A program made the translations under genes and the position numbers. The notes under the pieces were generated by a model. The model saw only the letters and a program-made list of their open reading frames with translations, was not told the origin of the DNA and searched no databases. A stretch of DNA of 11,837 nucleotides, taken from the NCBI GenBank assembly GCA_007135435.1, contig SLIW01000112.1, forward strand, positions 1 to 11,837. The letters are read 5' to 3'. Source of the stretch: Natronomonas sp. Lineage in GTDB: Archaea; Halobacteriota; Halobacteria; Halobacteriales; Haloarculaceae. Below are positions 61 through 11,160 of this stretch, piece after piece; the stretch's first letter is position 1; each line of letters starts with the position of its first letter.

Positions 61-109
61 ATACCCCTATGCGCTCGAACGGGCCGGGCACTCCGCCGTC
101 GCTCGGTCG

Positions 110-544
110 TCAATCGGTCTCGAACGGGTCCAGACCGAGCGCCTGGCAGAGCTCCAGGGTGTTCCACTCTGCCCACATCTCCGCGAACCTGCCGTCCTCG
201 ATCCGGCCGATGTTGATGCCACTGACGTCGACCTCCGCGTGAGTCGGCGCCACCGATGCCAGCGGTTCCGGTCCCCCCTGGCCGGCGTGGGTTCCCACGA
301 ACCGCCAGCGGAACACGACGTGGTCGCCGTCGACGAGGATCCTGTCGAGGTCGTAGGTGAGGTCGGGGAACGCCTCGTAGTAGCTGAACTCGGCCTCGGC
401 GTAGCCCTCGACGTCCAGGCCGACCGGCGAGAACTCGAAGTCGTCGGTGAAGAGCTTGGAGAACGCGTCGCGGTCCCGTTCCTCGAGGACCTCGAAGAGG
501 CGACGAACGAGCGACTCCGCGTCCTCCCTCGTGGTCGTCGGCAT
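110..544 (-). CDS. SnoaL-like / ester cyclase family protein (NTF2-like fold)
   Basis: This 144-residue acidic protein has the layout of SnoaL-like polyketide-cyclase relatives. An N-terminal helix (about residues 5-30, ending in the pattern of LFTDDFEF) is followed by a helical part with YYEAFPDL near 55-62, then beta strands with DGDHVVFRWRFVGTH at 72-86 and a C-terminal strand with GRIEDGRFAEMWAEWNT near 113-129. The DGD...RWRF...GTH and DG+...EMW signatures are typical of the uncharacterised 'ester cyclase' group, which is 130-150 residues long. Substrate and reaction are unknown; most relatives are annotated by fold only. A TATA-like box 27 bp before the ATG supports this start and a leaderless mRNA. 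The neighbouring flavoprotein lies upstream on the same strand with a 105-bp gap, so the two are probably transcribed separately. Confidence 0.85.
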   Translation of the reverse strand: MPTTTREDAESLVRRLFEVLEERDRDAFSKLFTDDFEFSPVGLDVEGYAEAEFSYYEAFPDLTYDLDRILVDGDHVVFRWRFVGTHAGQGGPEPLASVAPTHAEVDVSGINIGRIEDGRFAEMWAEWNTLELCQALGLDPFETD

Positions 545-567
545 GGTCCCGCAACTCGGGGTCCGAG

Positions 568-575
568 GTTAACTA
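568..575 (-). promoter_or_regulatory. Probable TATA box of the SnoaL-like gene
   Basis: On the minus strand this reads TAGTTAAC, centred about 27 bp before the ATG at 544. That is the spacing expected of a leaderless haloarchaeal promoter. No Shine-Dalgarno sequence is visible before the ATG, which fits. Confidence 0.5.
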
Positions 576-649
576 TTCCCATGTGGCGAGACTGACAGCC
601 CGCATCCACCGTCCGCTCTGTGACGAGATGGACACCGGGGATCGCCCAC

Positions 650-1846
650 TCAGTCGTCGTCGGACGTCGCCTGGGCCCGTCCAGGGTGTCCCTCGTGATC
701 GCGTGCGCGCTCGCGCAGCCGATCGGAGATGGCGGGGACGTCCGCCTCGGTGACCGGTCCGCGGGCCTCGATGTCCGAGAGCGAACGGGGGAACTCGCGG
801 AGGTCGTAGTGGTTGCCGATGCCGCAGCGGGCGCCCTCGCCCATCGCGACCGGGATCTGGTTGTGGCCCGGCGTGACGTCGCCGACGGCGTAGACGCCGT
901 CGACGGTCGTCCGGCCGTGGTCGTCGACGGCGATGGTCCCGTCGTCGTTCAGCGCGACGCCGAGCGACTCGGCGAGGTCTGTGTGGTAGTCGGCGCCGTA
1001 CATGGGGAAGCCGCCGCGGTACTCCCGTCGGATTCCGTCCTCGAACTCGAAGGCCGCGAGCCAGCCGTCCTCGTCCTTCTCGAGGCCGACCACGTCCTCT
1101 TGGACGACGTCGATCGGGTGGTTCTCGAGCTGTCGGGCGGTCTCCTCGGACCACGTGGGCTCCTCCCCCCGGGTCAGGATGTCGACGTCGGGGGTGAAGT
1201 TGAGCATGATCATCGCGACCTGGGCAGCCCCCTCGCCCGCCCCCATCACGTACACCGGCTGGTCGACGAACATGTAGGCGTCGCAGTGCAGGCAGTAGTG
1301 GAGCCCGCGGCCGGTCCGCGGCAAGGGCGGGTCGGGGTGGCCGTCGGTGAATCCCGTCGCGAGCACCACGTGGTCGGTGGTCACCTCCACGTCGCCGGCG
1401 ACGACGCGGAAGCCCGTCCGGCGTCCGTCCCCGCCGTCGTGGCCGTCCCCCTCGCCGGCGGCGTGATCCCGGCCATCGCCGGCGGCACGGTCCTCGCCAT
1501 CGCCATCGGCACGGTCCTCGCCGTCGCCATCGGCACGGTCCTCGCCATCGCCATCGGCACGGTCCTCGCCGTCGCCGCCCACGGCCAGCGGCTCGATCTC
1601 GGTGACGTAGTCCCGGAAGTAGTCCGCCCCGTAGGCACGGACCTGCTCGGTGGCGGTCTGGAGGAACTCGTTGCCGGAGACCTCCTCGGGGACCCCGATG
1701 ACGTTGTGGGTGTCGAGCATCATCGCCGCCCGGCCGCCGCCGCGGTTGATCACCGCGGTGTCGTGGCCGAGCCGCGTGGTGTACAGCGCCGTCGTCAGCC
1801 CGGCAGGACCGCCACCCACGACCGTCACCTGGTAGTGCTCCGTCAT
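650..1846 (-). CDS. Thioredoxin-reductase-like NAD(P)/FAD-dependent oxidoreductase with an internal acidic repeat
   Basis: This 398-residue flavoprotein resembles the thioredoxin reductase class. It has an N-terminal FAD-binding motif VVGGGPAG (residues 9-16), an ATGF segment near 163-166, the redox-active pair C185-L-H-C188 in a YCLHCDAYMF context, a second Rossmann motif near GAGEGA (202-207), and the C-terminal FAD motif GVYAVGDV. CxxC position and domain order match the family, but the protein is longer than a usual TrxR (about 310-340). The excess comes from a low-complexity insert at about 90-141, built from GDGEDRAD octapeptides, plus a C-terminal tail. The start at 1846 is chosen because a TATA-like element lies 28 bp upstream and VTVVGGGPAG follows at once; a longer reading to 1954 adds non-acidic residues. 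It is divergent from a VOC gene. The electron donor and protein substrate are unknown. It could equally be called a generic NAD(P)/FAD-dependent oxidoreductase. Confidence 0.9.
   Translation of the reverse strand: MTEHYQVTVVGGGPAGLTTALYTTRLGHDTAVINRGGGRAAMMLDTHNVIGVPEEVSGNEFLQTATEQVRAYGADYFRDYVTEIEPLAVGGDGEDRADGDGEDRADGDGEDRADGDGEDRAAGDGRDHAAGEGDGHDGGDGRRTGFRVVAGDVEVTTDHVVLATGFTDGHPDPPLPRTGRGLHYCLHCDAYMFVDQPVYVMGAGEGAAQVAMIMLNFTPDVDILTRGEEPTWSEETARQLENHPIDVVQEDVVGLEKDEDGWLAAFEFEDGIRREYRGGFPMYGADYHTDLAESLGVALNDDGTIAVDDHGRTTVDGVYAVGDVTPGHNQIPVAMGEGARCGIGNHYDLREFPRSLSDIEARGPVTEADVPAISDRLRERARDHEGHPGRAQATSDDD
1457..1579 (-). repeat. In-frame 24-bp tandem repeat coding for GDGEDRAD octapeptides
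   Basis: Four 24-bp units occupy 1484-1507, 1508-1531, 1532-1555 and 1556-1579. Decayed relatives (GDGRDHAA and similar) extend to about 1457. Units 1 and 3 are identical, while units 2 and 4 share a C-to-G change, which suggests duplication of a two-unit 48-bp block. The length is a multiple of three, so the array changes the protein's length without breaking the frame. It lies between the N-terminal FAD domain part and the strand leading to the CxxC domain, probably in a surface loop. Confidence 0.9.
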
Positions 1847-1870
1847 CGACTCGTCGTAACCCGCGGAGTG

Positions 1871-1877
1871 GCTTAAC
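1871..1877 (-). promoter_or_regulatory. Probable TATA box of the flavoprotein gene
   Basis: The minus strand reads GAAGTTAAGCC here, with the core 28 bp before the ATG at 1846. This fits a leaderless haloarchaeal promoter. The divergent spacer 1847-2084 also holds the promoter of the plus-strand VOC gene, for which I see no clear TATA box. Confidence 0.45.
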
Positions 1878-2084
1878 TTCCCGGCCGCTGTGCCCTCCGG
1901 ACGCACGCTTTGGGGGCCATTGACAGACGGAGGCCTCCAGACGGAGCCAGGCATCTACATCGGAATCGACGTTCTTCGACGTACATCGTCAGTGGCGACC
2001 GTGGAGACCCCAGTTCGTCGATGTCCCTCGTTGCGCTCGCTCGACCTGCAAAATCGCTATGCCGTCTGGGGCCGAAGAGTCGCT

Positions 2085-2552
2085 ATGAGCGAGACGTATC
2101 GCGTCGGTGGCATCGACCACGTGGAGATGGTGGTCTCCGACCGGGAGGCCGCGATCGACTGGTATCGAACCGTCCTGGGTCTCGAGACCCGTGACGAGTT
2201 CGACGCCTGGATCGAGACGGGCGGGCCCGTCCTGTGTTCGAGCGACGGTGGGGCGACCAATCTCGCGTTGTTCGAGGGCGAGCGCCGAGCGGACGACGAC
2301 CCGACCGGGTTCCGTCGGGTCGCGTTTCGGGTGGACGCCGAGGACTTCCTCGCGTTCGTCGAGCGGGCCGACGAGCTCCCGCTGTACGACCCGGACGCCG
2401 GCGAGCTCGACGACCTCGAGATCGTCGATCACGAGCGCTCCTACTCGACGTACTTCTGCGATCCAGACGGGAACCGCCTGGAGATCACGACCTACGACTA
2501 CGACGCGGTCTCCGATCACGTCGATCCGACCGCCGATGCGGCCGCTCGGTGA
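2085..2552 (+). CDS. VOC superfamily (glyoxalase / bleomycin-resistance / dioxygenase fold) protein
   Basis: This 155-residue protein has two beta-alpha-beta-beta-beta modules. The first opens with GIDHVEMVVSD (H12 as candidate metal ligand) followed by AIDWYRTVLGLETR, the classic 'fixed-length helix then VLGL' pattern. The second ends in YFCDPDGNRLEITTY, with E133 as the second candidate metal ligand. These are hallmarks of VOC metalloenzymes such as glyoxalase I and ring-cleaving dioxygenases, but the substrate cannot be inferred. The start at 2085 is chosen because GIDHVEMVV begins nine residues later, whereas the upstream in-frame extension is non-acidic. A nine-codon ORF at 2059-2088 ends in an ATGA overlap with this start. 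The stop codon lies inside a 37-bp tandem repeat. A second, clearly different VOC gene lies at 9744-10172. Confidence 0.88.
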   Translation: MSETYRVGGIDHVEMVVSDREAAIDWYRTVLGLETRDEFDAWIETGGPVLCSSDGGATNLALFEGERRADDDPTGFRRVAFRVDAEDFLAFVERADELPLYDPDAGELDDLEIVDHERSYSTYFCDPDGNRLEITTYDYDAVSDHVDPTADAAAR

Positions 2553-2622
2553 CCGTGCCGGCCTCCGCAGCGGTGCGGCTGCTCGCTGACCGTGCCGACC
2601 GCCGCAGCGATGCGGGCCGAGA
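2536..2622. repeat. 37-bp tandem repeat spanning the VOC stop codon, about 2.3 copies
   Basis: Unit 1 is 2536-2572, unit 2 is 2573-2609 with 32 of 37 bases matching, and a third copy begins at 2610 (ATGCGGGCCGAG). The TGA stop at 2550-2552 lies within unit 1, and unit 2 repeats a TGA at the equivalent place. The duplication therefore copied the end of the gene into the downstream region. Confidence 0.8.
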
Positions 2623-2748
2623 GGACCCGTGATCCGCGTGGGGCGGACGCCGAGGTGGTCATCTGCGCACGGCAACCGGTTCACCGACCTCGTGCGATAC
2701 CGTTACCAGATGGCGAGGCTTTCCGCACGCACCCGCTCCGGTAGGCTC

Positions 2749-2788
2749 ACCCTGGGATTACACCCGAGATTCCTCGGTCGCTCAGGGT
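2749..2788. repeat. Nested inverted repeat
   Basis: An outer 6-bp stem (2749-2754 with 2783-2788) encloses a 5-bp stem (2764-2768 with 2773-2777) around the loop ATTC. It could fold in RNA or be a degraded element. It has no T-run after it and no tRNA hallmarks, so I do not call a terminator or tRNA. Confidence 0.35.
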
Positions 2789-2801
2789 AGCCCCCGGAAA
2801 C

Positions 2802-2831
2802 CTTCCACAGCTGGCACTTCCACAGCTGGCA
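2802..2831. repeat. Perfect 15-bp tandem duplication
   Basis: The sequence CTTCCACAGCTGGCA occurs twice head to tail, at 2802-2816 and 2817-2831, without mismatch. The unit contains the palindrome CAGCTG, so two such sites lie 15 bp apart. It is about 100 bp upstream of the glutaredoxin start. It could be a recent slippage product or a paired regulator site. Confidence 0.8.
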
Positions 2832-2891
2832 GAAGGCCTTGCGGACTGACCGCAGGGAACCGCCGGCGACGCGAGACCGTCGGCGGTACGT

Positions 2892-2926
2892 CGCAAACGT
2901 CTTTGCGGGTCGGGGCCCTAGCCCCG
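2892..2926 (+). promoter_or_regulatory. Twin palindromes before the glutaredoxin start (candidate operator / leader hairpin)
   Basis: Two palindromes of the same size follow each other: CGCAAA-CGTC-TTTGCG at 2892-2907 and CGGGGC-CCTA-GCCCCG at 2911-2926. Each has perfect 6-bp arms and a 4-base centre. The first is centred about 30 bp before the ATG, where the promoter should lie. The second ends three bases before the ATG at 2930 and, if transcribed, would form a GC-rich hairpin against the start codon. No good TATA box is seen otherwise. Confidence 0.5.
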
Positions 2927-2929
2927 GAC

Positions 2930-3268
2930 ATGTCGATAGACACCGAGAGCCCAGCGCCGGAGGAGGTACCCGAACTGGTCGACGAGACGATCGCCGACAA
3001 CGAGGTCGTCCTGTTCATGAAGGGGACGGAGCTGATGCCCCAGTGCGGCTACTCCCAGAAGGCCCTCAACTACGTCAAGCACCACCGCGAGGACGCCGTC
3101 TGCGTCGACGTCCTCCAGGCCACCGACGCCTTCCGGTCGGCCCTGGAGCGCCACAGCGGCTGGACGACCATCCCGCAGGTGTACGTCGACGGGGAGTTCG
3201 TCGGCGGCAGCGACATCCTCGAGGAGCTCCACCAGCGCGGCGAGCTCGCCGAGACGCTCGACGCGTAG
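2930..3268 (+). CDS. Monothiol glutaredoxin (CGYS, Grx4/GrxD-like)
   Basis: This 112-residue thioredoxin-fold protein belongs to the CGFS-type monothiol glutaredoxins, which bind and transfer [2Fe-2S] clusters with glutathione or another small thiol. Diagnostic features in order are VVLFMKGT (K31 before the active site), PQCGYS with C39-G40-Y41-S42 (Y replaces the usual F), the cis-proline segment WTTIPQVYVDGEFVGG (P82, GG 92-93) and the DI.EEL helix near 95-100. Its length matches single-domain family members. Haloarchaea generally use gamma-glutamylcysteine rather than glutathione, so the physiological thiol is probably different. The start at 2930 is preferred over a TTG at 2903 because the ATG begins the acidic sequence. 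It is a lone gene, possibly controlled by the twin palindromes just upstream. An 11-bp repeat array begins inside its stop codon. Confidence 0.92.
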   Translation: MSIDTESPAPEEVPELVDETIADNEVVLFMKGTELMPQCGYSQKALNYVKHHREDAVCVDVLQATDAFRSALERHSGWTTIPQVYVDGEFVGGSDILEELHQRGELAETLDA

Positions 3269-3325
3269 CCGGAATGCAGCCGGAGTGCAGCCGGAGCGTA
3301 GCCGGAGCGTAGCCGGAGCGTAGCC
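3267..3325. repeat. 11-bp tandem repeat starting in the glutaredoxin stop codon, about 5.4 copies
   Basis: The units are AGCCGGAATGC (3267-3277), AGCCGGAGTGC (3278-3288) and AGCCGGAGCGT three times (3289-3321), followed by AGCC to 3325. The first two bases of the first unit are the AG of the TAG stop codon at 3266-3268. Units drift gradually from left to right, with the rightmost three identical, as expected from slippage growth at one end. Confidence 0.92.
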
Positions 3326-3423
3326 ACGTGCACCGGTGCCGTCGCCGTCGGTACTTGCGGGCTACCGGCCGCTCGGAACCGACGGACGTGGTGTGGTACA
3401 GAGGCGCACAGTGAAGGACAGGT

Positions 3424-3431
3424 GATATAAG
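3424..3431 (+). promoter_or_regulatory. Probable TATA box of the conserved hypothetical gene at 3503
   Basis: GATATAAG is a good haloarchaeal TATA match. Initiation about 25 bp downstream would give a 5' leader of about 50 bases containing the hairpin at 3467-3487, unlike the leaderless genes nearby. Confidence 0.5.
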
Positions 3432-3466
3432 TGAGGAACCCGTACAATTAGCTGGACCACTCGCGG

Positions 3467-3487
3467 CAGAGGGACGCGGACCCTCTG
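3467..3487 (+). repeat. 7-bp inverted repeat in the leader of the gene at 3503
   Basis: CAGAGGG (3467-3473) and CCCTCTG (3481-3487) are perfect inverted copies with a 7-base centre. The repeat ends 15 bases before the ATG. If transcription starts near 3453 it would form a hairpin in the 5' untranslated leader; alternatively it is a DNA operator. Confidence 0.55.
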
Positions 3488-3502
3488 TGGGACAGGGATA
3501 CC

Positions 3503-4138
3503 ATGACCAGTCGCGTTTACAGACTTCACTCGACGCTGGAACTGCAACTCGACGACGTCCACGAGTTCTTCGACGGGTACGAGTTGCCCGTCGAGATCGC
3601 GGACGTCGAAGTAACGCGGCGGAACAACACGCTGATCGTCAGCGCCGTTGCCGCCGAGGACAACATCTCCAAGTACACGCCGACGGCCCAGCTGAAGGCG
3701 AGCATCACGGAGAACCGGCTCTACGAGACCGAGGACGGCTGGCAGGAGACGCCACCCGACCCGCAGAACGGCGCCGGAGGTGGCGGGGACGGCGACGAAC
3801 CCCAGTGGAGCAACTTCGGCGAGGCCGGCCAGATGCAGGAGGCCGAGGTCGAGGTGAACTCGAAGCTCGTCGAGTACGCCTGCTTCAAGGGCGACCGCGA
3901 GACCGTACTCCAGAACACCGCCCTCCAGTACCCGATGTTCGAGGTACTGCGCGACCTCGCGATCTTCGCCGAGAAGGGCACCCTGACCGCCATCGCCGGC
4001 GTCGAGGACGAGCTCGAGGCGACCCGCATCGTCGACGGCGAGGAACGAGCGGCCAACATCGAGGTCATCGACGACCCCCGCGAGCGCGACTCCGCCAACG
4101 CCGTCAACTGGCGCGATAACAAGTTCATCAGCGAGTGA
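3503..4138 (+). CDS. Conserved haloarchaeal protein of unknown function
   Basis: This 211-residue acidic protein has no signal peptide or membrane segment. The N-terminal part (1-75) reads as a compact alpha/beta unit with a conserved-looking VEVTRRNNTLIVSAVA stretch near 35-50 and SKYTPTAQLKASI near 56-68. A Gly/Asp-rich linker at about 85-110 separates it from a second unit (115-185) with LVEYACFKGDRETVLQNTALQYPMF, which holds a single cysteine (C127). I recognise this pattern as a widespread haloarchaeal protein with no assigned function, but I cannot name a mechanism. The start is an ATG after a leader with a hairpin and a TATA box at 3424. Its stop codon (4136-4138) lies within the left copy of the repeat that flanks the LeuRS gene, so the inserted segment abuts this gene without damaging it. 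Confidence 0.85.
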   Translation: MTSRVYRLHSTLELQLDDVHEFFDGYELPVEIADVEVTRRNNTLIVSAVAAEDNISKYTPTAQLKASITENRLYETEDGWQETPPDPQNGAGGGGDGDEPQWSNFGEAGQMQEAEVEVNSKLVEYACFKGDRETVLQNTALQYPMFEVLRDLAIFAEKGTLTAIAGVEDELEATRIVDGEERAANIEVIDDPRERDSANAVNWRDNKFISE

Positions 4139-4187
4139 CGGGGCGGCGCGGCGCGGTACCTGTCGGCGTTCTGCGTCTGTTAGAAGG
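4132..4187. repeat. Left copy of the direct repeat flanking the LeuRS gene
   Basis: This 56-bp segment matches 7486-7543 in the same orientation. By hand alignment 52 of 58 columns agree, with four mismatches and two single-base gaps. The conserved blocks are a 16-bp start (CGAGTGACGGGGCGGC), TACCTGTCGGCG in the middle and GTCTGTTAGAAGG at the end. It contains the stop codon of the upstream gene, which suggests that the repeat unit came from this gene's 3' end. Confidence 0.88.
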
Positions 4188-4341: not shown

Positions 4342-7266
4342 TCACTCCAGTCTGATCGCGGGTCGAAGCGGGATCGCGTCGGTCGCTTTCTCGTCGTCCG
4401 TCTCCGTCTCCGGGACGCAGACGACTTCGGCGTCGAACTCGCGAGAGAGGAACGCGCTCGCGTCATCGTAGACGTCGAGTTCGTCGATCTCGTCGAGGTG
4501 TTCGACTTCACCGGCACCTCGATCTCGAACGGTCTCGATCAGCCGGGCGACCACGGTGTTCACCTCCTCTCCGCGCTCTCGGAGCGCGTCGTTCTCCATC
4601 ACCGACGCCATCACCGTCCCGACTTGGGGCACCCCGTCGGTGCCGGACGCCTGTTCGACGACGGCACGGAGCACCTGCCGTTTCCAGCCTTCGGCGACGT
4701 AGATCCGGACCGTCGAGGGGTCCGTGCCGGTGACCGATGCGACCTCCGCGATGTCGTCGTACAACGCGCTGACGAGTCGCTCCTCGGCGCTGACCTGTGG
4801 CGCCTCGAGCGCGTGGTCGGGGTCGGGCCACGGAGCGTCGTCAGCGGGGAGGCCGGTGAGCTGTTCGTGAAGCTCGTTCGTCACGAAGGGGATCAGGGGT
4901 GCCAGCAGTCGCAATCGCGTCTCCAGTACCGCGCGCAGTGTCGACTGGGCCCCTGGGCGATCGAGGTCGGTCCGGCGGCGATACCATCGAAGCCGCTCCT
5001 CGAACCGGTAGAACACGACCTGACTCGCCGTCCTTGTTTCGAACCGCTCCAACGCGTCGGTCACCTCGCGGATCGTGTCCTGCAGGTTGGCAAGGAGCCA
5101 CCGATCGATCCGTTCCAGTTGGGATCTACCGCCATCGGGTTCCGTCGACGGAAGCTCGGACGACGAGCGGGAGCGATCGGCCTCGATGATCGTCTGCGCG
5201 TGGTGCCAGAACCGTTCGAGTTGGTCGCGGGTCGTACCGACCTCCTCGGCCTGCCAGTCGTAATCCTGCCAGGGTTCCGCGGCGTTCAACAGGAAGAACC
5301 GGACGGTGTCGGCCCCGTATCGGTCGATGGCGTCGCCGGGTAGCACCACGTGGCCCTTCGAGGAGCTCATCCGACGACCCTCGAGCAGACCCATTCCCAT
5401 GACGGTGATTCCTCGCGGCCAGTGCGGCTCCTCGAACAGTTCGGCGTGGTGGTAGAGGAAGAACGTCAGATGGTTTCGAATCAGATCGTTTCCAGAACAC
5501 CGGACGTCGACGGGGTACCAGAACTCCCACTCCTCGCGGAGCGCGATGGCGGTCTCGTTCGGATCGTCGACCGCCTCGGGCCCGGAGAACAGGGTGTCGA
5601 AGAACTCACGGTCCAGCTCCTCGACCGGGACGTCCTCCAGCCGGTGGGCGATGGCGTAGTAGGCCATGTAGATCGTGGAATCCGACAACGGCTCGATGAC
5701 GAATGTCGGATCCCAGGGAAGCCGCGTGCCGAGGCCATAGTTCCGGATACAGGGCCATCCGTTCAACCATTCGATGGTGTCCGCGTATTGCTCGCGGGTG
5801 TTCTCGGGGATGGCATCCAGGCGCGCGACGGCTCGATGCGCCTTCTCCTTCCACCCGGGATCGTCGTAGCGCAGGAACCAGGTGTCCTGATACGCCACCG
5901 CTACGGCTCCTCCACATCGACAGATGACCTCCTCGGTGAACTCGTAGAAGGTGTCGAAGTGGCCCCGGTCACGGTGGCGCTCCCGGAACGAGGACCGTGC
6001 GTCGCGGACCACGTCTCCCGCGAACGGGCCGTACGCCTCGGTCAGGCGACCATCGTTGAATTCGTCGCGGTACAACGCCGTCGTGACCTCATCGAGCCGT
6101 GGATCGTCGGAGGAGTCGATCCCCGCGTCCTCGACCGCCGTCCGTGCGGGAACGGTCCCGTATCCCTCGACCGTCAGGATCGGAATCGGCTCGATGGCGC
6201 GGATCGAGGCCTCCTCCAGGCCGTACGCACGGGCGAGCCGTTCCGCATCCGCCTGGACCTCCCGGAGGGCGACGTAATCGTCCGGACTGTGTGCGGGGAC
6301 GGACATGACAACGCCAGTCGCGTTGTCAGCGTCGACGAATCCGGCAGGGAACACCAGTACCGCCTCATCCGTGACCGGGTTCCGGACGCGTTCGCCGACC
6401 ACCCGTTCGCCCGCGAATCGCTCGACGACCTCGACCGATCGCTGTTGGAGGCGCAGTTTCTCGACCGCGGGTTCAGAGATCAACCACGACTCCCGGTCGA
6501 CGGTCGCGAGGACGTACTCGGCTGCGGGATCGACGTAGACGTTCGTGACGCCGCGGACGGTCTCCGGTCGCAACGTCGCCATGGGTGCGATCACCACGTC
6601 GTCGTCGCGTTCCCATTCGAACCGGATCAGGGTGTACTCCTGGAACTCCGCCTCCTCTCCCTCGAGGAGATCGTGTGTCGTGACGGGGTTCTCCTCCCTG
6701 GTGCAGTACTTCACGGGGTGTTTGCCCTTCTCCAGCAGCCTGCGCTCGCGGAGCGTCTCGTACTGCCACGTGACGAACCGCGAGTAGCGTTCGTCGTTCG
6801 TCGTGAACTCCCGGCGCCAATCGATCGACAGTCCGAGTCGGCGCATCCCCCGTTTGTAGCTCGAGGCTGCCTCCTCGATGAAGTACCGAGCATACCCCAT
6901 CGGCGTCTCCAGCTCCCGGAGGTCCGCTTCGGGAACACCGAAGGCGTTCTGGAGGCTATCGATCTGTCGCTGTTCACCGTTCCTCAGTCGTTCGACCGCG
7001 CCCACGATCGGCGTGCCGGTGACGTGCCACGCGATGGGGAAGAGGACCGCGTCGCCCCGTTGGCGGCGATACCGGGCGTATACGTCCGGGACGGTATACG
7101 TTCGTGCGTGGCCGATGTGCATGCCCCCGCTCGGATAGGGATAGGGGACGGTGACGAAGGTCTTCTCGATGGCCCCGTCGTCGGCGGTCGGCTCCGCCTC
7201 GTACCGGCCTTCGGAGGCCCATCGTTCCCGCCACCGCTCCTCGATGACCTGCGGGTCGTAGTCCAT
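4342..7266 (-). CDS. leuS: Leucyl-tRNA synthetase, archaeal/eukaryotic type
   Basis: This 974-residue class Ia synthetase charges tRNA-Leu. In order it has PYPSGGMHIGH (HIGH at 50-53) with ARTYTVPDVYARY; LFPIAWHVTGTPIVG at 75-89; a CP1 editing domain at about 185-490 containing TLRPETVRGVTNVYV and GVVMSVPAHSPDDYVAL (D329/D330 near the conserved editing aspartate); CRCGG at 449-453; PLSDSTIYMAYY at 526-537; the KMSKS-equivalent RMSSS at 632-636 followed by KG; an anticodon-binding helical region at about 715-830; and an archaeal C-terminal domain ending in IPLRPAIRLE. Length and order match the Pyrococcus-type enzyme from end to end, so it is intact. The start at 7266 has GGAGG five bases upstream; an extension to 7779 would read through the flanking repeat. 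Sampled G+C is 60-67%, mostly below its neighbours. It is probably a second LeuRS, because typical haloarchaeal LeuRS has a bacterial-type catalytic half. Confidence 0.95.
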   Translation of the reverse strand: MDYDPQVIEERWRERWASEGRYEAEPTADDGAIEKTFVTVPYPYPSGGMHIGHARTYTVPDVYARYRRQRGDAVLFPIAWHVTGTPIVGAVERLRNGEQRQIDSLQNAFGVPEADLRELETPMGYARYFIEEAASSYKRGMRRLGLSIDWRREFTTNDERYSRFVTWQYETLRERRLLEKGKHPVKYCTREENPVTTHDLLEGEEAEFQEYTLIRFEWERDDDVVIAPMATLRPETVRGVTNVYVDPAAEYVLATVDRESWLISEPAVEKLRLQQRSVEVVERFAGERVVGERVRNPVTDEAVLVFPAGFVDADNATGVVMSVPAHSPDDYVALREVQADAERLARAYGLEEASIRAIEPIPILTVEGYGTVPARTAVEDAGIDSSDDPRLDEVTTALYRDEFNDGRLTEAYGPFAGDVVRDARSSFRERHRDRGHFDTFYEFTEEVICRCGGAVAVAYQDTWFLRYDDPGWKEKAHRAVARLDAIPENTREQYADTIEWLNGWPCIRNYGLGTRLPWDPTFVIEPLSDSTIYMAYYAIAHRLEDVPVEELDREFFDTLFSGPEAVDDPNETAIALREEWEFWYPVDVRCSGNDLIRNHLTFFLYHHAELFEEPHWPRGITVMGMGLLEGRRMSSSKGHVVLPGDAIDRYGADTVRFFLLNAAEPWQDYDWQAEEVGTTRDQLERFWHHAQTIIEADRSRSSSELPSTEPDGGRSQLERIDRWLLANLQDTIREVTDALERFETRTASQVVFYRFEERLRWYRRRTDLDRPGAQSTLRAVLETRLRLLAPLIPFVTNELHEQLTGLPADDAPWPDPDHALEAPQVSAEERLVSALYDDIAEVASVTGTDPSTVRIYVAEGWKRQVLRAVVEQASGTDGVPQVGTVMASVMENDALRERGEEVNTVVARLIETVRDRGAGEVEHLDEIDELDVYDDASAFLSREFDAEVVCVPETETDDEKATDAIPLRPAIRLE

Positions 7267-7485: not shown

Positions 7486-7543
7486 CGAGTGACGGGGCGG
7501 CCCTGCGCGATACCTGTCGGCGATTCTCCGGTCTGTTAGAAGG
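7486..7543. repeat. Right copy of the direct repeat flanking the LeuRS gene
   Basis: This is the partner of 4132-4187, in the same orientation, with 52 of 58 aligned columns identical. It is not attached to a protein gene here. Homology stops abruptly after GTTAGAAGG on the right, and just before CGAGTGACG on the left. The two copies enclose about 3.3 kb made up almost entirely of the LeuRS gene and its upstream region. Confidence 0.88.
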
Positions 7544-7823: not shown

Positions 7824-8060
7824 ATGAGCGGGCACGTACAAGCCACGTCAGCGTTCGAACCGATCGAGACGATACTCTACGAGGTCGCAGACCGGAAAGG
7901 TGTAGACCCCATCGACTTACCGGTGTTATCTGAGCACATCGATCCCGATGCGCTCGAAGCAATCCTGGAATCGGCATCGGACGTCCGCGTGACGTTCCAG
8001 TACGACACCCATCGTATCACGGTCTGTGGCGATGGGGACGTCGAGATAACCAGTTCCTGA
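7824..8060 (+). CDS. HalOD1 output-domain protein (stand-alone)
   Basis: This 78-residue protein is a single HalOD1 domain (halobacterial output domain 1) with little else. Matching features are the helix IETILYEVADRKGVDPIDLP (residues 14-33), the ID-PDALEAILES segment (39-50) and the terminal strands VRVTFQYDTHRITVCGDGDVEI (55-76). HalOD1 is restricted to halophilic archaea and often appears alone or attached to signalling proteins. Its molecular function is not established. The start at 7824 is favoured over TTG at 7803 because a palindrome-overlapped TATA box lies 32 bp upstream and the protein then fits the usual length. It is convergent with the winged-helix regulator, with only 10 bp between the stop codons. 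Confidence 0.85.
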   Translation: MSGHVQATSAFEPIETILYEVADRKGVDPIDLPVLSEHIDPDALEAILESASDVRVTFQYDTHRITVCGDGDVEITSS

Positions 8061-8070
8061 AGCCCTCTTC

Positions 8071-9009
8071 TCAGGATTCGACGGTGTCGGCGTCACCTTC
8101 GACGTCGAGACCGACGTCGAGGTCGACGACCTCGAGGTCCTCGTCCACGGTGAGGGTCAGTTCGTCTCCCGCCTCGGCGAAGGTGACGCTCGCTCGGAAC
8201 GGTTCGCGACTCCGGATCCGCTGGCGGTCGATGTGGATGCCGGCCAGCGCCCAGACGGAACGGTCGAACACGTCGACGCCGCGGTCGTGATGGAAGCAGA
8301 CCACGGCGGGATGGTAGAGCAACGAGAGGCGCAACCCGCCCGTCACCTCGACACCGCACCGCGTGCAATCGTAGTGGACGTTCGGTACCTCCGAGAGCCG
8401 CGTGGCGACCTCCTCCGGGACGTCCTCGGGGACCTCCGTGATGGTCTCCTCGAACGGGGTGACCGACGGCCGGACCGGGCCGTCGCAGAAGAGGCAGAAT
8501 CCGACGGTGAGCCGCTGATACGTCGTCAGCAGGTAGCGACCGGCCACCTCCGGGAGGTCGTCGCGGTCGCAGTCGACGACGACGCTCGGGGGCACGCCGA
8601 ACTGCGCGTGGGCGGGGCAGTCCTCGCAGTCGACGCGCACGAGATCGTCCCCGTACGAGAGCGTCCGGTCCCCGCCGCAGGTCGGACACGGGACGTCGAA
8701 CGGGAATGGCTCGATCGTCGTCTCCATCGTGTACGCGCCGGCGTGGATCGCGCCGTTGATCTGCCGTCCCGCCTGCGTGAGCTCGTAGCCGTCGGCCGTC
8801 TTGCCGACGAACCGACCCACCAGCTTGTCGAGGTGGTAGTTGAACTGCCCGGAGTCGCGCATCCCGACGGCCTCGCGGAGCTCCGAGAACGTCGCTCCCT
8901 CGCCCTCCGTCTCCCACAGCGCCTGGAGGATCGCCACGCGGGTGTCGTCGGCGAGGAGCGCGAACACCTCGTCGGGATCGGTCTCGTCGATGAGTGGAGG
9001 GTCGTCCAT
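8071..9009 (-). CDS. Winged-helix (ArsR-like) transcriptional regulator with four CxxC pairs
   Basis: This 312-residue protein opens with an ArsR-like winged helix (about 11-85): DPDEVFALLADDTRVAILQAL, then TFSELREAVGMRDSGQFNYHL as the helix-turn-helix core, and a wing ending DGYELTQAGRQI. The long remainder has four CxxC pairs, C108/C111, C128/C131, C172/C175 and C215/C218, enough for two zinc sites, and a beta-rich acidic tail. This architecture is common in haloarchaea; the C-terminal domain may bind a ligand or sense metal or redox state, but the effector is unknown. It lies 22 bp after an HTH/zinc-ribbon gene on the same strand, so the two are probably one operon. The ATG at 9009 starts the acidic sequence; the longer frame to 9075 overlaps the upstream gene. 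Confidence 0.85.
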   Translation of the reverse strand: MDDPPLIDETDPDEVFALLADDTRVAILQALWETEGEGATFSELREAVGMRDSGQFNYHLDKLVGRFVGKTADGYELTQAGRQINGAIHAGAYTMETTIEPFPFDVPCPTCGGDRTLSYGDDLVRVDCEDCPAHAQFGVPPSVVVDCDRDDLPEVAGRYLLTTYQRLTVGFCLFCDGPVRPSVTPFEETITEVPEDVPEEVATRLSEVPNVHYDCTRCGVEVTGGLRLSLLYHPAVVCFHHDRGVDVFDRSVWALAGIHIDRQRIRSREPFRASVTFAEAGDELTLTVDEDLEVVDLDVGLDVEGDADTVES

Positions 9010-9031
9010 GGGCTCGCTCGATCCGACGTGC

Positions 9032-9451
9032 TCAATCGCCTTCCATCCAGCCCGTCCGACCCGCGGCGCCGCCACCGCCGCCCATCACGAACTCCGCGCC
9101 GGCGCAGGTGAAACAGCGCACCGCCCCGTCGGTCTCGGTGTACGGCCTGGTCAGGACGCCGCCGCACTCGTCGCACTCGGTCGGCTGGGCGGCGCTCCGG
9201 AGGTCCGCGATCGCACTCCGGGTCGCGGCGGCGGCCTCCAGCTTGTTCGTCGCCTCCCGTAGTTGCTGGTCGACGGCGGCCGGAGGGATGCCCATCGACG
9301 CGGCGGCCTCGTCGGCGGACGTGCGCTCGATCTCCCGGAGGACGTACGCCGTGGCCTCCGGCTCCGTCAGCAGGCCCGCCTCGACGAGTCGGTCGATCGC
9401 GACGGCGCGGTGCGTCATCGGGACGCCCCCGTCGTCGAGCACCGCGTCCAT
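9032..9451 (-). CDS. Small HTH plus zinc-ribbon DNA-binding protein
   Basis: This 139-residue protein has a sigma-70-region-4/Tfx-like helix-turn-helix at about 28-72 (LLTEPEATAYVLREIERTSA, then DEAAASMGIPPAAVDQQL) followed by a C-terminal zinc ribbon with C93-xx-C96 and C113-xx-C116. Similar haloarchaeal proteins are annotated as transcriptional regulators with no known target. A Gly-rich tail follows the ribbon. The start at 9451 is bounded by an in-frame stop about 20 bp upstream; M12 (9418) is an alternative start that would remove the short N-terminal lead. It is the first gene of a probable two-gene operon with the winged-helix regulator. A TATA-like TTTAAG at about 9553-9558 lies about 105 bp upstream, and an ACCAC/GTGGT inverted repeat at 9505-9516 lies between. 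Confidence 0.75.
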   Translation of the reverse strand: MDAVLDDGGVPMTHRAVAIDRLVEAGLLTEPEATAYVLREIERTSADEAAASMGIPPAAVDQQLREATNKLEAAAATRSAIADLRSAAQPTECDECGGVLTRPYTETDGAVRCFTCAGAEFVMGGGGGAAGRTGWMEGD

Positions 9452-9743
9452 GCTGATCGGCGACGCGCTTCATCGACGCCGTCCGGTTCGCCATCAGCCC
9501 ACCCACCACGTGTGGTATTCACCATCAAGCTACCGTATCCCAAGAGCCGCCCTTAAATGATGCTTTCGAACACCCGGCGCTGGTGAACACCCGGCGCTGG
9601 TGAACACCCGGCGCTGTCGAACACCCGGCGCTGTCGAACACCCGGCGCTGTCGAACACCCGGCGCTGTCGAATGTCCCTGCTCGAGTCGACGCCTCCGTC
9701 CACTGCTCCCCTGTCGAACGGCATCCGCGGATACACGTCGAGG
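9452..9743. other. Intergenic region with promoter signals and a 17-bp array
   Basis: There is no supported gene in this 292-bp stretch. From right to left it holds the 3' flank of the VOC gene, a 17-bp tandem array (9568-9669), a minus-strand TATA-like TTTAAG near 9553-9558, and an inverted repeat ACCAC-GT-GTGGT at 9505-9516 that may serve the regulator operon. Confidence 0.55.
9568..9669. repeat. 17-bp tandem repeat, six copies
   Basis: Six head-to-tail units occupy exactly 102 bp. Units 1-2 read GAACACCCGGCGCTGGT and units 3-6 read GAACACCCGGCGCTGTC, with a decayed seventh (GAATGTCCCTG) after 9669. All units of each subtype are identical, so growth is recent. The array lies 74 bp downstream of the VOC stop codon and just upstream of the promoter region of the regulator operon. 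Confidence 0.95.
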
Positions 9744-10172
9744 TTACTCGGTCACGTCCACATCGGCCAGTGGCTCGTTGATCTCGACGAGCGTTCCAGC
9801 GGGGTCCCGGAAGTGGGCGACCCGGATCCCCCATCCGGGTTGGTCGTGCGGTTCGGTGATGAACGCCACGTCCGCGTTCAATCTTTCGTACGTCTCGTCC
9901 ACGCTCTCCACCCCGAATACGAGCGTGACGTCGTCACGCTGTGCGCCATCCAGTGGCTCGTCGCCGCCACCAACCACGTCGGCCATCGCCGCGCTGTCGA
10001 ACAGGGCGAGGGTCGTCGCGCCGGTCCGGAAGTCGGCGTACCCGCCATCTTCGTCCCCCCAGTCCACCTCGAATCCCAGCACGTCACGATAGAACTGGAA
10101 GCACTCCCGGTAGTTCGGGACGAGTAGCCTGGTATGGGTGAACGTGAGCGGCGGCGTGTGGCTTCCATCCAT
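9744..10172 (-). CDS. VOC superfamily (glyoxalase-fold) protein
   Basis: This 142-residue VOC protein opens with LTFTHTRLLVPNYRECFQFY (H13 as candidate metal ligand), followed by RDVLGFEVDWGDEDGGYADF. The second module has VTLVFGVESVDETYERL, AHFRDPAGTLVEINEPL and a candidate metal ligand at E130. This matches glyoxalase/bleomycin-resistance relatives acting on small molecules; the substrate is unknown. It is clearly different from the VOC protein at 2085-2552 and is not a recent duplicate. The start at 10172 is supported by a TATA-like GATATACTG 24 bp upstream; the longer frame to 10298 adds a basic extension. It is downstream of the aldo/keto reductase on the same strand, but the 151-bp gap and its own promoter argue for separate transcription. 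Confidence 0.9.
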   Translation of the reverse strand: MDGSHTPPLTFTHTRLLVPNYRECFQFYRDVLGFEVDWGDEDGGYADFRTGATTLALFDSAAMADVVGGGDEPLDGAQRDDVTLVFGVESVDETYERLNADVAFITEPHDQPGWGIRVAHFRDPAGTLVEINEPLADVDVTE

Positions 10173-10190
10173 ACCGGGCCGTTCGAGGCC

Positions 10191-10200
10191 CAGTATATCA
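10191..10200 (-). promoter_or_regulatory. Probable TATA box of the second VOC gene
   Basis: The minus strand reads TGATATACTG, centred about 24 bp before the ATG at 10172. There is no Shine-Dalgarno site, so a leaderless transcript is likely. Confidence 0.5.
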
Positions 10201-10323
10201 AGACGAGCCCGTTCGGTGAAACGGCGTCGCACTCCTGGAGGGCAGGACGCCATCGGGTCAGCAGAGAGGACGCGAGGGGCGGTTGTTCCATCAAACACAG
10301 ACGACCCGTGCGGGGGACCCGTC

Positions 10324-11139
10324 TCACCACTCCGGCGCGTAGTCGGGATCGAAGTGCCGCTCCCGCCGGTCGATGTCGTCGATCGCCGCGATCTCGTCCT
10401 CGGTGAGGTCCATGCCGCGCGACTCCCAGTTGTCCCAGATGTGATCCTCGCCCGTCGCCTTGGGGACGGCCGCGACGCCCTTCGCGCGGAGCCACGCCAG
10501 GGTCACCCGGGCGACGCTGACGCCGCGGTCGTCGGCCACCTGCTGGAGCTCGGGCACGTCGAAGACGGCGCCGTGGGCGAACGGGGTGTAGGCGACGACG
10601 TCGACGCCCACCTCGCGGCAGTACTCACGGAGGTCGGCCTGCGGGAGCAGCGGGTGGACCTCGATCTGGTTGGCGGCGACGGCCGGGTCGGTCGCCAGCG
10701 CCTCGTCGACGTGCGCGGGCAGGTAGTTGCTCACCCCGACGTCGGCGACGAGCCCCTCGTCGCGGAGCTCGGCGAGCGTCGCGTGGACGAGCTCGAGGTC
10801 GTAGTCGCTCGGCCAGTGGACGTACAGGAGGTCGACCGCCTCGACGCCCAGCCGGTCCAGACAGCCCTCGAGGGCCGACCGGATCGATCCCCGCGTGGGG
10901 TCGCCGGAGACGCTCCGCGGGTGGAGGATCTTCGTCGCGAGGCACACCTCCTCGCGCGGCACGTCTGCCACCTCGACGCCGGCACCGACCGGCCGCTCGT
11001 TGTCGTACTGCTCCGCCGTGTCGACGTGGCGGTAGCCCAGCTCCAGCGCGGTGCGGACGCTCTCGCGGCACTGCTCGAAATCGGTGTTCTGCCAGGTCCC
11101 GAGCCCCAGGCGGGGGATCGGCGAGTCGCGGTCGTCCAT
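10324..11139 (-). CDS. Aldo/keto reductase
   Basis: This 271-residue (alpha/beta)8-barrel NADP(H)-dependent carbonyl reductase has the full catalytic tetrad: D40 and Y45 in GYRHVDTAEQYDNE, K70 in LATKI and H108 in LLYVHWPSD. Other family signatures are PRLGLGTWQ at 9-17, GVSNYLPAHVDEAL near 135-148, NQIEVHPLLPQADL, VVAYTPFAHGAVFD, and the late KGVAAVPKATGEDHI cofactor-phosphate-binding segment. Length is normal for the 2,5-diketogluconate-reductase-like branch. It probably reduces aldehydes or ketones in the cytoplasm; the substrate is not defined. The start at 11139 is supported by a TATA-like CTTTACC 25 bp upstream. The upstream frame to 11391 runs through repeats and is not acidic. Confidence 0.93.
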   Translation of the reverse strand: MDDRDSPIPRLGLGTWQNTDFEQCRESVRTALELGYRHVDTAEQYDNERPVGAGVEVADVPREEVCLATKILHPRSVSGDPTRGSIRSALEGCLDRLGVEAVDLLYVHWPSDYDLELVHATLAELRDEGLVADVGVSNYLPAHVDEALATDPAVAANQIEVHPLLPQADLREYCREVGVDVVAYTPFAHGAVFDVPELQQVADDRGVSVARVTLAWLRAKGVAAVPKATGEDHIWDNWESRGMDLTEDEIAAIDDIDRRERHFDPDYAPEW

Positions 11140-11160
11140 AGTGGGATACGTCCCGAGCGC

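Follow-up and report, generated by a model that had tools for sequence, protein, structure and literature searches.

Three forms of leucyl-tRNA synthetase (LeuRS) are described for haloarchaea, the archaeal form A and the forms B′ and B″ (Andam et al. 2012, PMC3436685). In that account, form A occurred in three of 14 genomes (Haloferax, Halogeometricum, and Haladaptatus), without a B form in Haloferax volcanii, and was favored as the ancestral haloarchaeal state, and the archaeal and bacterial LeuRS forms were only 21–26% identical. The leuS gene described here lies in the window, the stretch of 11,837 nucleotides that was analyzed as a whole. Like the form A genes of that account, it belongs to the LeuRS-A clade, encodes the full archaeal architecture, and can coexist with LeuRS-B′; unlike them as they are described there, it lacks a thermosome/alanine dehydrogenase neighborhood (neither was present among the 12 window proteins scanned), is not adjacent to LeuRS-B′, and has a composition unlike that of its own genome's LeuRS-B. 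Haladaptatus likewise has A and B′ in one genome; there, according to the same source, the two are adjacent and divergently transcribed, whereas in the window's genome the two lie on different contigs and LeuRS-A is bordered on each side by over 4 kb of other DNA. Two further second LeuRS enzymes of archaea are summarized in PMC9437257. One, LeuRS2 of the haloarchaeon Natrialba magadii (Fang 2014), is described as bacterial-type and weak in charging, whereas ours is archaeal-type; in the other, Sulfolobaceae LeuRS-I (Weitzel 2020), CP1 is reported as disrupted and the C-terminus as divergent, whereas both are intact in the window's protein. Literature searches on LeuRS in haloarchaea and Sulfolobus and on LeuRS duplication yielded no title on this particular genome. 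Haloarchaea with a fully archaeal LeuRS have, however, been known since LeuRS-A was described in 2012 (PMC3436685), and the locus, if acquired as seems probable, exemplifies a documented kind of gene swap; it does not represent a new kind of enzyme.

The gene, leuS-A, occupies positions 4342–7266 on the minus strand, with an ATG start at 7266 and a stop at 4342–4344, and has 974 codons. Its 974-aa product, labeled P0001 in trees and identity comparisons, scored in the family scan 943 bits against leuS_arch (TIGR00395; cut-off, 648.5) and 1038 bits against NCBIfam PRK12300 (cut-off, 677), and failed the bacterial leuS_bact model with 174 bits (cut-off, 548.4). The best solved relative was 1wz2, which we take to be the LeuRS of Pyrococcus horikoshii; residues 6–974 aligned with it. 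The HIGH signature (residues 50–53; 7108–7119, minus strand) was read in the sequence, and RMSSS (residues 632–636; 5359–5373, minus strand) aligned with the KMSKS of 1wz2. In the CP1 editing domain, the T-rich motif TLRPET (residues 231–236; 6559–6576, minus strand) was conserved relative to 1wz2 and Asp 330 (6277–6279, minus strand) aligned with an Asp there; the extreme C-terminal PAIxxE was also matched. HIGH and the KMSKS equivalent presumably have their usual roles, and TLRPET and Asp 330 are presumably elements of the CP1 editing site. As assayed by the 1wz2 alignment and by conserved columns, the catalytic, CP1 editing, and C-terminal motifs were all intact: the protein differed at six of the 322 columns that are at least 97% conserved among haloarchaeal LeuRS-A and its nearest kin, and at one (R672Q) of the 176 columns conserved to that degree over all aligned archaeal rows. 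A pseudogene was ruled out, as there were no internal stops and the conserved columns were retained. To judge from its sequence, the gene is an ordinary, complete LeuRS-A with no sign of decay, and the sequence-only reading of this DNA, which had recognized the archaeal LeuRS pattern throughout the full-length protein, was borne out; the motifs that it quoted, AWHVTGTPIVG among them, are present.

That reading had also supposed that the gene was a second copy. A search of the genome bin (G000; 3.11 Mb in 590 contigs, 75.9% complete, contamination estimate 0.9%) found, on a contig other than that of LeuRS-A, a full-length second LeuRS of 901 aa (P0121, at C400:4437–7139). It scored 865 bits against leuS_bact over residues 6–759 (cut-off, 548.4) and matched the archaeal LeuRS model over residues 520–900 only, under the cut-off; these profile matches identify it as the bacterial-type LeuRS already known from haloarchaea, whose C-terminal part is archaeal-like. 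Since the bin contains a full-length bacterial-type LeuRS, the supposition was correct. P0121 looks like the resident enzyme because it is 80–81% identical to the LeuRS-B copies of the nearest genus members. An AhpC/TSA-family gene adjoins it on C400, and a homologue lies about 4.5 kb from LeuRS-B in G018, the one relative compared. The other long synthetase matches in the bin were ValRS (C498) and IleRS (C122), as identified by family scan, with one additional short match on C187.

When 392 genomes of the order were surveyed at a threshold of E ≤ 1e-150, LeuRS-A was found in 151 and LeuRS-B in 288: 236 had B only, 99 had A only, 52 had both, and five had neither, absences being approximate because incomplete bins were counted in. 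By this threshold, the combination of archaeal and bacterial LeuRS is common in haloarchaea. The earlier argument, in which a haloarchaeal LeuRS of fully archaeal type is likely to be an additional enzyme, therefore holds for this bin but not generally, the archaeal form being the only LeuRS found in the 99 genomes with A only. With labels assigned by identity (B′-like, best LeuRS-B at least 63% identical to the bin's copy; B″-like, 52–59%), the 52 genomes with both forms divided into 25 B′-like, the window's genome counted, and 27 B″-like. In 16 of the 25 B′-like genomes (for example, G297, G338, and G317), no more than about 2.5 kb separated the A and B matches; the window's genome is among the nine in which they are farther apart.

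The base composition of leuS-A had been described as lower in G+C than that of other genes. Counted per 60-base line, the mean was 39.3 within leuS-A (48 lines; 10–90% range, 36–43) and 41.5 elsewhere in the window (102 lines from 100–4100, 8060–9450, and 10320–11140, some intergenic DNA among them; 10–90% range, 38–46); thus the direction held, but the ranges overlapped. The GC3 of leuS-A was 0.827. Among nine other window genes (the AKR gene was excluded), seven gave 0.87–0.97 and two were lower than leuS-A, the HalOD1 gene (0.684) and a glyoxalase-like gene at 9744–10250 (0.769). Compared with its host counterparts, leuS-A differed: LeuRS-B, ValRS, and IleRS of the bin had GC3 values of 0.97, 0.95, and 0.97, respectively, and LeuRS-A 0.83. 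The difference A minus B in GC3, calculated for 28 of the 52 genomes with both forms (all 25 B′-like and three of the 27 B″-like), was within ±0.05 in 25. The outliers were G186 (−0.255), G041 (−0.220), and the window's genome (−0.143), whose unlinked, compositionally mismatched copies are therefore one of three such cases among those 28. Divergent LeuRS-A proteins with 54–57% identity to P0001 were seen in G041 (L025), G186 (L268), G023 (L028), and G403 (L279). L025 and L028 differ at 25 and 17 of the 322 conserved columns, respectively, and in G041 and G186 the GC3 of LeuRS-A is far under that of their own LeuRS-B.

Within the genus, LeuRS-A was found in two of 20 genomes, the window's and G011 (87% complete), which gave no LeuRS-B match. 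To the left of leuS-A lie a DUF7110 gene (3503–4138, plus strand), matched in 19 of the 20 genus genomes, the window's included; a glutaredoxin-like gene (2930–3268, plus strand); and the gene of a thioredoxin-reductase-like FAD protein (650–1954, minus strand). In the DUF7110 loci of 18 relatives, compared over flanks of up to 1.5 kb, the glutaredoxin-like gene also adjoined DUF7110 in six and a reductase homologue was nearby in 15. Because the three co-occur in relatives, the left part of the window is true genus DNA. The right neighbor is a small ORF with a HalOD1 domain (7824–8060, plus strand), identified by family scan. In the 16 relatives compared, the DNA that follows DUF7110 had no ORF in common with the window, and some of these relatives shared ORFs there with each other; the comparison could therefore show no empty insertion site. 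Of 80 LeuRS-A loci on genome contigs (flanks up to 5 kb, some shorter), one, L168, held another window gene, a reductase-like match; six further LeuRS-A loci contained no other window gene. The scan of 12 window proteins detected no integrase, which speaks against an integrative element. RNA family models gave zero matches in the window at gathering thresholds, and a sigma-70-type promoter scan is inapplicable to archaea. The reductase ORF contains a tandem repeat (1480–1575) encoding GDGEDRAD units, and five genus relatives match its protein in two pieces, as though the repeat were an insert; a second, intergenic short tandem repeat, with units containing CACCCGGCGCTG, lies at about 9570–9670.

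The direct repeats reported to flank the gene were confirmed. A core of 37 nt with 92% identity, at 4132–4168 and 7486–7522, extends with small gaps into an imperfect repeat of about 57 bp, with the left copy at 4132–4187 and the right copy at 7486–7543 (both plus strand); the left copy begins inside the final codons of the DUF7110 gene. No exact match longer than 16 bases was seen between the two copies. When the 20 genus genomes were searched with the repeat, its second copy in the same genome gave E = 6.6e-14, against E = 1.4e-4 for the best of the remaining matches; no further copy was found in these genomes. The repeat may have arisen as a target duplication at insertion, by now about 10% diverged; the usual target duplications of transposons are shorter than this.

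For the phylogenetic analysis, 14 duplicates and four partial sequences were removed from the 151 loci and two partials were restored; the FastTree set held 113 ingroup rows and 23 further rows from the same phylum. P0001 fell inside the haloarchaeal LeuRS-A group, not with methanogens, and a non-haloarchaeal origin of leuS-A was therefore ruled out. The nearest kin varied with the tree: Halorientalis-type and unplaced rows in FastTree; Natronorarus (L044) in a quick IQ-TREE of 33 rows, which supported the haloarchaeal and Marine Group IV rows at 99; and the metagenomic protein P0003 (support, 100/99) in a careful tree of 44 rows with one Marine Group IV row as the sole outgroup, in which the LeuRS-A backbone was weakly supported. 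The end branch of P0001 (0.51) was about double that of its sister P0003 (0.26). Generally faster evolution of LeuRS-A in genomes with both forms was not supported in a comparison of 22 A-only and 19 A+B rows (Mann–Whitney p = 0.22), with G011, which is outside the 392-genome survey, placed in the A-only set and rows L026, L027, and L029 omitted. Constraining P0001 and the LeuRS-A of G011 to one clade, a group chosen after the tree was seen, was not rejected by the AU test (p = 0.449). Marine Group IV rows branched near the base of the haloarchaeal LeuRS-A clade, in line with LeuRS-A as the ancestral haloarchaeal form. LeuRS-A proteins with 53–54% identity also occur in Marine Group IV bins (L181 and L183) and in a Halobacteriales bin (L178). 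The sequence-only reading had named, as one outcome that would refute it, a tree joining this protein to the LeuRS that haloarchaea normally inherit by descent; this is partly the case, P0001 lying inside the haloarchaeal LeuRS-A group.

We consider it probable that leuS-A is a functional xenolog that coexists with the resident enzyme, LeuRS-B′, so that the genome is at the two-copy stage of a type of gene replacement already known. As we picture it, leuS-A would have come from another haloarchaeon and been inserted next to the DUF7110 gene of a genome that already had LeuRS-B′ elsewhere. From its motifs, LeuRS-A is predicted to activate leucine at the HIGH/KMSKS site, to use its archaeal C-terminal domain in charging tRNA-Leu, and to proofread with its CP1 domain, so that LeuRS-A and LeuRS-B′ would both charge the same tRNA-Leu pool. 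The stage would be that of the replacement kind proposed for haloarchaea in 2012 (PMC3436685). Transfer between haloarchaea is likely, if unproven, because of the rarity of LeuRS-A in the genus (two of 20 genomes), the neighbors, matched at only one of the LeuRS-A loci compared, the flanking repeat, and the GC3 gap to the genome's own LeuRS-B. The AU result and the low GC3 of the HalOD1 and glyoxalase-like neighbors count against transfer. The variation of the nearest kin between trees, the incompleteness of the bin, and the absence of a demonstrable empty site also weigh against the reading that we favor. The idea of a transferred copy in the sequence-only reading is favored by composition and context; the AU test does not reject a clade with the G011 copy, and the likely source is another haloarchaeon. 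If two such enzymes do serve one essential reaction here, the genome is a tractable case for asking why cells keep both at the 21–26% identity given for these forms (PMC3436685).

It is rather unlikely that the genome is mid-swap, with a recent LeuRS-A about to displace LeuRS-B′ or conditionally used in its place; were this true, the swap would be complete in G011, where LeuRS-A was the sole form detected, and the genus would be a natural experiment on the free interchangeability of two unrelated LeuRS forms. Similarly doubtful is vertical descent of LeuRS-A from a haloarchaeal ancestor, with loss in most of the genus and a move by local rearrangement. The near-basal Marine Group IV bins with LeuRS-A, the argument on other data for an ancestral LeuRS-A in the account of PMC3436685, and the AU test are consistent with such descent; however, it requires that most of the other 18 genomes of the genus, a few of which may lack the gene through incompleteness, have lost it, and does not fit the low GC3 relative to LeuRS-B, IleRS, and ValRS or the neighbors, which are unshared with other LeuRS-A loci save for the one reductase-like match.

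That the two synthetases come from two organisms pooled in one metagenome bin is improbable, although the bin is incomplete and fragmented and the genes lie on separate short contigs. The contamination estimate is low, LeuRS-B is closest to genus members, and the LeuRS-A contig carries the DUF7110, glutaredoxin, and reductase genes that occur together in genus members; we infer that the longest exact match of the repeat, 16 bases, is too short for a misjoin.

A specialized or noncanonical role, which would be compatible with the acquired copy that we favor, is more improbable still. Its precedents are Sulfolobaceae LeuRS-I and Natrialba LeuRS2, which are reported in PMC9437257 to have little or no aminoacylation and to retain tRNA binding, and the long end branch of P0001 is consistent with it; against it stand the intact CP1 and C-terminal motifs and retained conserved columns, whereas, according to the same source, the CP1 of LeuRS-I is disrupted and LeuRS2 duplicates another form. 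The least probable role, also compatible with an acquired copy, is resistance to an inhibitor that targets LeuRS, which would follow by analogy with duplicated SerRS, IleRS, and TrpRS (as described in PMC9437257), since the 12 window proteins scanned include no gene linked to aminoacyl-tRNA synthetase inhibitors, and the two glyoxalase/bleomycin-resistance superfamily proteins and one SnoaL-like protein in the window belong to broad superfamilies uninformative on LeuRS. We found nothing in support of either role, both of which had been suggested from the sequence. Neither viral contigs, searched with six exact peptide patterns that detect close relatives only, nor plasmids provided a close match to LeuRS-A, all 259 matching plasmid records being less than 60% identical to P0001. 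The 20 plasmid matches listed of the 259 were ValRS, unannotated stretches, and one leuS; this last, on a 607-kb plasmid of Haladaptatus caseinilyticus (NZ_CP111040.1:5002–7623), has 24% identity to P0001 and is probably bacterial-type.
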